Assembly (NCBI RefSeq): GCF_002872335.1
Contig: NZ_NJAG01000016.1
Span: 62,001-126,000, forward strand
Direction: 5' to 3'
Source: Siphonobacter sp. BAB-5405
GTDB lineage: Bacteria; Bacteroidota; Bacteroidia; Cytophagales; Spirosomataceae
Length of the DNA stretch: 64,000 nt
Numbering within the stretch: the first letter of the stretch is position 1; each line of letters opens with the position of its first letter. The translations under genes and the position numbers were made by a program. The notes beneath the pieces were generated by a model. It ran no database searches. It was not told the DNA's origin and saw nothing but the letters and a program-made list of their open reading frames with translations. Shown piece by piece: positions 21,649-61,575 of the stretch.

Positions 21649-21694
21649 GGAGTTTTTAGTTTTCAGCGACTAGAAACGTAGATTGTCAAACAGA

Positions 21695-21817: not shown

Positions 21818-21898
21818 GCAACGTTCGTAGTTTCAATTTTACCAAAATCGCTTTATTACAACAACTGAAAACGGTAAACCGAAAACTGCAAACTAACC

Positions 21899-26988: not shown

Positions 26989-27207
26989 GTTTTCAGTTTC
27001 CGGTTGACTGTTTTCAGTTGTTGATTAACTCAAGGGTTTTCTCAACTTTGAAATTATCAATCAGAAATTGACTAGCTACTTCTTAATCCTGTACAGCGTT
27101 TGCAGTTTTCAATAGGCCATTCCTGGTATCCTGATCGAATCAGATAAGGATTTACAAACTGGTCAGTATTTAACTGAAAACTGTAAACTCTAAACTGAAA
27201 ACTGACA
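26989..27207. repeat. Heptad-bounded intergenic element B, between the transketolase halves
   Basis: The left arm (26989-27019) contains GTTTTCA-type words 5 bp after the tktN stop. The right arm is five phased 7-mers, ACTGAAA ACTGTAA ACTCTAA ACTGAAA ACTGACA (27173-27207), ending 2 bp before the next ATG. An internal 20-mer (27098-27117, GTTTGCaGTTTTCAATAGGC) recurs with one mismatch in element G. Confidence 0.65.
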
Positions 27208-44089: not shown

Positions 44090-44108
44090 GCTGTTGAGTT
44101 TAGAGTTT

Positions 44109-44218
44109 TTCAGTTTGCAATTTTCAGTTTGCAGTTTTCAGTACTACCAACGCGACTGTTTCTATGCTGAAATTGTCCCGATGAACTCCTGAAAACTGCA
44201 AATTGAAAACTGAAAACT
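44109..44218. repeat. Heptad-bounded intergenic element C
   Basis: The left arm is five phased 7-mers: TTCAGTT TGCAATT TTCAGTT TGCAGTT TTCAGTA (44109-44143). The right arm is GAAAACT GCAAATT GAAAACT GAAAACT (44191-44218). The arms are inverted, with an unrelated 47-bp centre. It fills the spacer between the VWA gene start and the fabG stop. It is the most compact and clearest copy. Confidence 0.7.
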
Positions 44219-48136: not shown

Positions 48137-48302
48137 GTTTTGGGTTTACCGTTTTCAGTTACGATTCCCCTTACATACGTCTCAACTGGGGTAATTTTCA
48201 CCACAATCCCAGCAAGGCATAAAGTTTCACTATAACATTTGACTCCTATACTCCGACGGAATCTATTACTGAAAACAGAAAATTGTAAACTTAAAACTGA
48301 AA
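48137..48302. repeat. Heptad-bounded intergenic element D
   Basis: Left: GTTTTGG GTTTACC GTTTTCA (48137-48157), starting at the Smr stop. Right: ACTGAAA ACAGAAA ATTGTAA ACTTAAA ACTGAAA (48268-48302), whose last A is the first base of the next ATG. Confidence 0.65.
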
Positions 48303-49750: not shown

Positions 49751-49976
49751 GTTTTCCGTTTTGAGTTTTCAGTTTTGAGTTGTTACCATATCATACGCTT
49801 AGGGAATGATCGGGACGGTAAAACATTTGTTTTTTAAAGATTTGATTCCCTATATCTGAACTGACAACCATCAACTAATAACCACGCAGGCAGGCCCTCA
49901 TGTAGGGCGTCCTACTGTTGAAACCGGGTGCTGTCGGAAGCTGAAAACTGAAAACTCAAAACTGAAAACTCAAAAC
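49751..49976. repeat. Heptad-bounded intergenic element E, upstream of rnpB
   Basis: Left: GTTTTCC GTTTTGA GTTTTCA GTTTTGA GTTGTTA (49751-49785). Right: GAAAACT GAAAACT CAAAACT GAAAACT CAAAACT (49942-49976), the purest tandem array in the window. Between them is an AACAACC-type run (49865-49885: CAACCAT CAACTAA TAACCAC). The array ends 6 bp before the rnpB -7 element. Confidence 0.7.
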
Positions 49977-49982
49977 TCCCCG

Positions 49983-49990
49983 TACCTTTG
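49983..49990 (+). promoter_or_regulatory. -7 element of rnpB
   Basis: TACCTTTG followed at the expected distance by the RNase P RNA 5' end. Confidence 0.65.
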
Positions 49991-49995
49991 CGGCA

Positions 49996-50336
49996 AGCAA
50001 GCCATCTTATCGCTTCCGGTGTAAGCAGGAAGAGGAAAGTCCGGGCAGCGTAGAGCACCGTGCTACCTAACGGGTAGGCAGTCAACTGGCGACGGTTGGC
50101 TGACAGCCAGTACCACAGAAAAAATACCGCTTTCCTTCGGGGAAAGTAAGGGTGAAAAGGTAGGGTAAGAGCCTACCGCTCAGGGGGTGACTTCTGAGGC
50201 AGGGTAAACCTCACGGGCTGAAAGACCAAATAAACCAGCGGTGTCCGCAAGGACCGAAGGGCTGCTCGTCCGGTGCTGGTGGGTAGGTCGTTAGAGACGG
50301 CAGGCGACTGCCGTTCTAGATAAATGATAAGACTTT
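49996..50336 (+). ncRNA. rnpB: RNase P RNA
   Basis: Catalytic RNA of RNase P, which trims tRNA 5' leaders. Diagnostic features: the P4/J region GAGGAAAGTCCGGGC (about 50032-50046), ACAGAAA (50114-50120), the GGGTGAAAAGGT...GGTAAGAGCCTACC element, the late GGTGCTGGTGGGTAGGTCG segment and the 3' AGATAAATGATAAGA. The P1 stem pairs TCTTATC (50005-50011) with GATAAGA (50326-50332). It looks like a type A bacterial RNA. A T-run and a UUCG-loop hairpin (50339-50352) follow. Ends are approximate. Confidence 0.93.
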
Positions 50337-50338
50337 TT

Positions 50339-50352
50339 ACTGGTTCGCCAGT
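50339..50352 (+). other. Small UUCG tetraloop hairpin after rnpB
   Basis: ACTGG-TTCG-CCAGT just past the rnpB T-run. It could stabilise or help terminate the RNA; there is no following T-run. Confidence 0.35.
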
Positions 50353-50551
50353 GAAGATGACAGAACCCGGCTTATCGGCTTGTTTTTTATTTCTATCGGC
50401 TGTTTTCAGTTTTAATTTACCGCGAAAGGTCGCCTTCGTATACCTTTTTTGGTTTTCTTCACGGAAAAACCAGAACTGTTTAACTACTACGCTGAAAACT
50501 TCTGAGCTAAAGCATTCTATCAACCGGAATTGCTTTCTACGTACTGTACCT

Positions 50552-52207: not shown

Positions 52208-52357
52208 GGGAGTTTTCAGTTTAGAGTTTACGGTTTTCAGTTTTGGGTGTTTACCGTTGCGGTTTTGAATTTTCTTAACATACTATAGAAAGGGTTTTAG
52301 GCTGGAAAACCGGCTTAAAACCCTTTCTTTTTTTATTTAAGGTTAGATCTACTGGCT

Positions 52358-52380: not shown

Positions 52381-52433
52381 CCGTCTGCTGTGCATTTTTA
52401 ATACATGAGATTGGAAATCCCACGCAGATTGCC

Positions 52434-52553
52434 AACCCCGGAGGGGTTCCATGTCATTAGCCCCGTATGCAATGCGGGGACTTGGCCAGCCCAGGTAGGT
52501 ACAGCCTACCAACGTTTGCGTCCGTAGCAAATGCTAGAGACAACCCGTCCCGC
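52434..52553 (-). repeat. Composite REP-like repeat, copy 3 (reverse)
   Basis: On the minus strand this reads unit A (31 bp, 52523-52553), a spacer with a GTAGGCTGTACCTAC palindrome, then unit B (46 bp, 52434-52479). Unit B differs from the copy at 19186 at only a few positions. Confidence 0.75.
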
Positions 52554-52655
52554 TTATGTTACCGGGTTTATCCTAACAGAAAACTGGAAATTGAAAACTG
52601 TAAACGCAAAACAGAAAACCCTAAACTCAAAACTCAATTATTAAAAACTATTCCG

Positions 52656-61434: not shown

Positions 61435-61575
61435 GTTTAGGGTTTGCGGTTTTCAATAGGCGTCGTTTTAAGTTTTCAGGTATGATGGAAGTTTACTTTT
61501 CAGTGTATTCGATGCCAAATGTTGCGTCAGATGGTGCCTGAACACCCCTTCCCTAACAGCTACTGAAAACTTAGA
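61435..61575. repeat. Heptad-bounded intergenic element G (weakest copy)
   Basis: Left: GTTTAGG GTTTGCG GTTTTCA (61435-61455), then GTTTTAA GTTTTCA (61465-61478). Right: only ACTGAAA ACTTAGA (61562-61575). It shares with element B the 20-mer GTTTGC(A/G)GTTTTCAATAGGC (61442-61461). Confidence 0.5.

Follow-up and report, generated by a model that had tools for sequence, protein, structure and literature searches.

Inverted arrays of a degenerate 7-bp unit bracket many genes for the 23S-rRNA intervening-sequence protein (IVP, or S23p; PF05635) in Bacteroidota as well as on plasmids from other phyla, and arrays of this kind also flank spacers between protein genes in the window, i.e., the whole 64,000-nucleotide stretch analyzed here (G000:C11:62001-126000, from the 6.49 Mb draft genome G000). 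These spacers follow a layout that is not random, their left and right arms agree in unit type, and their sites turn over between sister genomes; the IVP gene is absent from all seven window spacers considered. We consider it probable that they are IVP-less members of a class of selfish or mobile elements that code for IVP and lie between genes, of which the intervening sequence (IVS) of 23S rRNA is the known form, with spacer G being included more doubtfully.

The unit reads GTTTNNN in left arrays and NNNAAAC in right arrays, which is GTTTNNN read inward on both strands. The initial annotation had singled out seven spacers (A-G) built on this inverted plan, and all of them are present where it placed them, although the plan is clear on both sides only in B, C, D, E, and F and is weaker in A and G:

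21652..21666, + strand: spacer A, left array, 2 in-phase units, weak
21863..21894, - strand: spacer A, right array, 4 units
26989..27019, + strand: spacer B, left array, between the N half and the C half of a split transketolase
27172..27205, - strand: spacer B, right array, stopping a few bases short of the start codon downstream
44107..44142, + strand: spacer C, left array
44189..44218, - strand: spacer C, right array
48137..48160, + strand: spacer D, left array, beginning immediately past the stop codon
48268..48302, - strand: spacer D, right array, reaching a likely start codon
49749..49781, + strand: spacer E, left array
49941..49977, - strand: spacer E, right array
52211..52244, + strand: spacer F, left array
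52431..52572, + strand: spacer F, interior, REP-like element
52593..52637, - strand: spacer F, right array
61435..61455, + strand: spacer G, left array, 3 units
61562..61570, - strand: spacer G, right side, a single clear unit

The arms can pair on either strand, and arm-to-arm pairing exceeded that of shuffles for each of B-F (p 0.005), but was not clear for A (p 0.15) or G (p 0.05). The arms are inverted yet variable in length and unit, and their units, degenerate in the window, are perfect in other arrays of G000. The unit had been described as being of the GTTTTCA type; position counts over 258 units reduce the constant part to GTTT, which is fixed by definition, followed by three freer positions, of which position 5 is most often T, position 6 is C or G, and position 7 is most often A. 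Similarly, the longest window array has 7 units with gaps allowed, not the up to nine repeats reported at first, and arrays of 13 or more units exist in G000 outside the window. A search for shared interiors found none common to all seven spacers, and the plan first described, with inverted heptad arrays around unrelated middles, is correct. The spacers lie between protein genes and not inside a 23S rRNA helix; an Rfam search of the window returned the RNase P RNA beside spacer E as its sole match, and no rRNA. The right array of spacer E ends a few bases 5' of TACCTTTG (49983-49990), which resembles a Bacteroidetes promoter, and of this RNase P RNA (49994-50390). A comparison of the E-F DNA with plasmids was set aside, the 6 records found all matching one short stretch within the RNase P gene.

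Chance is excluded as the source of the 7-bp phase. In 564 kb of G000, runs of three in-phase GTTT or AAAC spaced by 7 bp were counted 73 times (24 + 49) in 349 intergenic regions (73 kb) and not once in 478 kb of coding DNA, and other spacings from 4 to 15 occur 0 or 1 times each between genes, except for the harmonic at 14 (27). Regardless of unit, 13 of 311 regions are 7-periodic and inverted on both sides, compared with 0 in each of 20 shuffled sets; this strict test detects A, B, and D but not C, E, F, or G. Among arrays of at least 3 units, 16 of 18 of the GTTT type lie closer to the left gene, and 18 of 19 of the AAAC type lie closer to the right gene. Where one region holds both types (2 or more units per type, one missing unit allowed; 22 regions), GTTT lies left of AAAC in 20, the reverse is seen in 0, and 2 are mixed, while 23 further regions of the 564 kb have GTTT only and 15 have AAAC only. 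This layout is independent of gene direction. An argument from DNA orientation was dropped, since GTTT past stop codons and AAAC ahead of start codons amount to the same layout at the RNA level. A fixed 17-base unit pattern occurs in 37-238 copies per genome in six genomes of the genus (reversed pattern, 0-1), in 36 and 28 copies in two other genera of the family, and in at most 13 in the remaining genomes examined.

The link to IVP begins in the same genome. A PF05635 gene at G000:C4:95404-95868 is bracketed by an inverted array pair and ranks second among 440 G000 genes by inverted score. It is the one bracketed IVP locus in the 564 kb, and G000 as a whole has 3 IVP matches compared with 22 two-type spacers in the 564 kb. 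The six genus genomes contain 14 IVP matches, each between other genes and most, by eye, with arrays beside them; 9 of the 14 pass the 7-bp threshold. Compared by unit type, the arrays of A-F reach a cosine of 0.66-0.81 with the best genus IVP array and at most 0.38 with any of 58 other Bacteroidota IVP arrays. Because A-F resemble the IVP arrays of their own genus and not those of other Bacteroidota, we read them as IVP-less members, whereas spacer G is not separable in this way (0.38 vs. 0.35).

The association extends well beyond the genus. Of 148 Bacteroidota genomes, 116 were found to have the IVP family, as were none of 14 control genomes. We analyzed 70 Bacteroidota loci outside the genus, 30 chosen by the search tool and 40 picked by us before their flanks were seen. 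A 7-bp run lies beside IVP on at least one side at 57 of the 70 and on both sides at 39, compared with 57 and 7, respectively, of 440 genes of the array-rich G000 at the same thresholds; 13 of the 70 have no run at threshold, and 31 do not have one on both sides. Both-sided runs at periods 5, 6, 9, 10, and 11 were found at none of these loci and at period 8 at 9, so that period 7 stands alone save for its double and the weaker 8. The inverted arm match exceeds the cross-locus 95% level at 20/30 and 24/40 loci, the direct match at only 3/30 and 4/40, and the shuffle p of the inverted match is ≤0.05 at 22/30 and 28/40. Inverted match values are 33.3 and 37.8 within loci vs. 20.2 and 21.1 between loci, and RNA duplex energies beat the cross-locus 5% level in 22 of the 70. 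Away from shared sites, the similarity of IVPs is only weakly, though significantly, associated with unit type (rho 0.11, p 0.007; 2148 pairs from 67 loci, 17 of the 84 IVP loci being left out for want of a 7-bp run). We do not claim tight co-evolution of IVP and unit at such sites, since IVPs of similar sequence at unrelated sites usually differ in unit, as in most of 25 pairs. Sequence comparison gave a single relative of solved structure, PDB 2gsc (XCC0516).

IVP-like places were also found by tblastn in 26 plasmid records, 16 of which were analyzed. Ten of the 16 loci, mostly cyanobacterial, have an inverted arm match at p ≤0.05, one direct-array locus being set aside. Their units, such as GTAGGGA, GGGAACA, GGGAAAA, and TAGGGTG, are like the cyanobacterial STRR heptads, and an unannotated stretch of an Azospirillum plasmid has an IVP flanked by GACAGAG/GACGGAG units. 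Six of the 16 fail: L123 and L127 have direct instead of inverted arrays, L120 and L128 have a clear array on one side but not on the other, L124 has a 7-bp array on the downstream side only, and L121 has none on either side at threshold. Seven of the 16 score 54 or more, whereas a control set of 102 genes from two cyanobacterial stretches has 2 that reach 30 and 0 that reach 50; the control includes one IVP, which at 18 is not above the rest. IVPs on these plasmids lie between cas6 and cas4 (L122, L123), between cas10 and cmr3 (L132), or between two ribonucleotide reductase genes (L125). In two Nostoc plasmid operons the IVP occupies different junctions, each of which is only a few bases long in the other.

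Comparison with a close relative, G001, in which nearly the whole window aligns in the same order at about 89-96% identity, indicates how such spacers change. Slippage, as had been suggested for these arrays, is evident in A, E, and F, whose arrays differ by 7 or 14 bp between the two genomes. Such steps were seen only inside arrays; differences in whole-spacer length showed no excess of multiples of 7 (1 of 15 array spacers), because the interiors change too. At spacers B and C, G001 differs in both arms and interior between near-identical genes, with the layout kept; arms and interior are exchanged together at a fixed site while its flanks remain 95% identical. Among 269 spacers paired between the genomes (80 of 349 regions without a paired place were dropped), the matched part is below 60% of the spacer in 6 of the 16 that carry arrays in both genomes, compared with 12 of 226 array-less spacers, or 6 of 143 when only array-less spacers of 100 bp or more are counted, supporting faster turnover of array spacers (Fisher p 0.0003-0.0004). 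Spacer C falls outside those 6 cases, as its counted interval included part of a gene. The two arms also agree in unit type. The base at position 6 defines two dialects of the unit, and across 26 spacers the left and right arms differ by 0.16, compared with 0.46 in shuffled pairings (p 0.0002 pooled over two genomes with shared sites; p 0.0004 and 0.016 for each alone). Ten sites were typed in both sister genomes: unit type switches in both arms at 4 of them (C and three contig-4 sites) and stays the same at 4, while the other two switch in part, B in its right arm and half of its left, and another site in its right arm only.

One might ascribe all this to neutral growth, in which slippage and template switching at inverted repeats build the arrays and IVP genes land in spacers that are permissive. 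The shifts of 7 or 14 bp between sisters are in keeping with such growth, the unit varies among copies of perfect and presumably young arrays (11-15 units), and template switching would make both arms agree. However, this explanation, which we regard as unlikely, predicts neither the joint exchange of arms and interior between flanks that remain near-identical nor the bracketed IVPs on plasmids of other phyla, with other units.

If the spacers belong instead to an IVP-coding class, as we favor, the full element would consist of an inward 7-bp array, a gene for IVP, a four-helix-bundle protein, and the same array inverted. IVP may recognize the array, and the element may move as a unit with the help of IVP. 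By analogy to the 23S IVS, which is excised by RNase III, the arms in a transcript could pair into a stem that holds the cargo in its loop, and this might allow a host operon to tolerate the insert. Slippage would afterwards alter the number of units, and IVP-less members would either have decayed or never have carried the gene. For the 23S IVS of Coxiella, PMC4990558 describes an S23p ORF with a variable number of GACAGAT heptads ahead of it, and excision of the IVS by RNase III; it also describes an S23p of Xanthomonas campestris as a homopentamer. The likeness lies in a PF05635 ORF between inverted arms, in heptads before the Coxiella ORF (PMC4990558), and in complementary ends able to form a stem, which B-F have as well. 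By contrast, the elements here lie between protein genes, have long inverted arrays of many unit types, and often carry no ORF.

Junctions that are filled in some species and empty or otherwise filled in others support this reading. Between two aconitase-family genes, presumably leuC/leuD, G000, G003, and G004 have an IVP element, G001 and G005 about 30 bp, and G002 a PIN-domain gene. Between two Gfo/Idh/MocA genes, an IVP is found in G001, G002, G003, and G005, those of G002 and G005 with internal stop codons, whereas the junction is under 60 bp in G004 and holds a DUF433/DUF5615 pair in G000. At the GMC-oxidoreductase/gluconate-dehydrogenase-3 junction, all six genus genomes have an IVP, and these group by array type (set by eye), not by species, with 71-86% identity within and 60-69% between types; G000-G003-G005 is the sole strongly supported group. 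The downstream gene there is 96% identical between sister species. By-eye comparison of filled and empty junctions at a few sites established no target-site duplication.

Toxin-antitoxin-like genes (PIN, L141 in G002; DUF433 with DUF5615, L150 in G000) thus fill junctions that hold an IVP in sister species. This would suit a second alternative, namely that IVP and array form a protein-RNA unit, in which the transcribed repeats are bound by IVP, which either controls the operon or works as a toxin-antitoxin-like addiction unit, mobility being incidental. The orientation of IVP, which is co-directional with both neighbors at 59 of 84 loci, also fits. Nevertheless, most spacers are arrays without IVP, and Coxiella S23p did not slow the growth of E. 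coli according to PMC4990558, and we judge this alternative to be more unlikely still than neutral growth.

REP-like sequences have also to be considered. The initial annotation had set the spacers apart from REP units, which is correct for the arrays themselves, which are not palindromic units; yet a REP-like, palindrome-rich element (52431-52572 in the window) has 57 matches in G000, and an AAAC array starts a few bases past the end of 16 of 20 copies examined, compared with 1.9% of random intergenic 60-mers. The unit that follows varies (GGA, TGG, TGA, AGA, or CCA after AAAC). Pieces of the element lie near two of three Y1-transposase (PF01797) loci, L213 (G000:C9:42401-42745) and L214, some on opposite strands. 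Arrays might on these grounds be tails made by the REP/RAYT system of G000, which we nonetheless hold to be very improbable, since most array-adjoining copies have no GTTT array in the upstream 600 bp, and F is the sole window spacer in which the element was found. The Y1 transposases were rejected as movers of the arrays, one of the three loci having a single in-phase GTTT pair and the others none. Architectural or regulatory protein-binding sites under selection on phase would account for a constant GTTT among free positions, but are scarcely credible given the fast turnover of arms and interior relative to array-less spacers.

Heptads of other bacteria may be related to the elements proposed here. 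Two Xanthomonas genomes have 70 and 75 inverted heptad pairs, and G-rich heptads of Xanthomonas and Nostoc form intergenic 7-bp arrays near ORF ends (PMC4692102, available text). Tandem 7-bp units in intergenic DNA, as in cyanobacterial STRR, are found here too, but the main text of PMC4692102 draws no link to IVP, with 0 occurrences of "S23" or "four helix." TAACTGA repeats of Beggiatoaceae, cyanobacteria, and Bacteroidetes are described as direct repeats with a proposed translational role; like the present arrays they are intergenic heptads beside start codons, with one reversed set after a stop codon, and are patchy across phyla, and "S23," "four helix," and "IVP" have 0 occurrences in the available text of that paper (PMC4679880). 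The window spacers further resemble MITEs in being short, IVP-less, spread in one genome, and inverted at their ends, but differ in that the ends are degenerate arrays, the interiors are unrelated, and no target duplication was seen. The MITE-like origin and the STRR comparison first offered for these spacers pointed the right way, and the link to IVP and the joint exchange of arms and interior come on top. In the open-access literature, preprints excluded, we found no paper that connects heptad arrays with IVP genes located outside rRNA.

We lean, with some reserve, towards a wider hypothesis, that the heptad repeats of several phyla (STRR, TAACTGA, GGGAATC, and alike) and the orphan IVP/S23p genes are two halves of one selfish class in operons, of which the 23S IVS is the rRNA special case, with IVP reading the heptad dialect and co-evolving with it, and IVP-less copies riding along. 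The cited papers, in their available text, state no origin for the heptad repeats and no known function for IVP/S23p; joining the two makes both questions testable, and may explain the puzzling seven-letter repeats of many bacteria. It predicts protein-nucleic acid recognition with changeable dialects, and a class of elements entering operon junctions, including those of plasmid CRISPR-cas operons (L122, L123, and L132).

Some further features were observed around the arrays. A short GC-rich palindrome of the type CCGCAGCGGCGGCCGC, not found in the coding DNA examined, occurs inside or beside heptad arrays (G000 C4 152318-152482, C4 226267-226386, and several of L192-L211). At L075 (1800-1881), the right array is apparently read as the C-terminal end of IVP, the stop codon overlapping the start of the next gene. 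By eye, related brackets of GTTTGA-like units at G000 C4 323288-323577, L080, and L085-L087 are spaced by 10-11 bp, not 7, a spacing that four genus IVP loci at the Gfo/Idh junction show.
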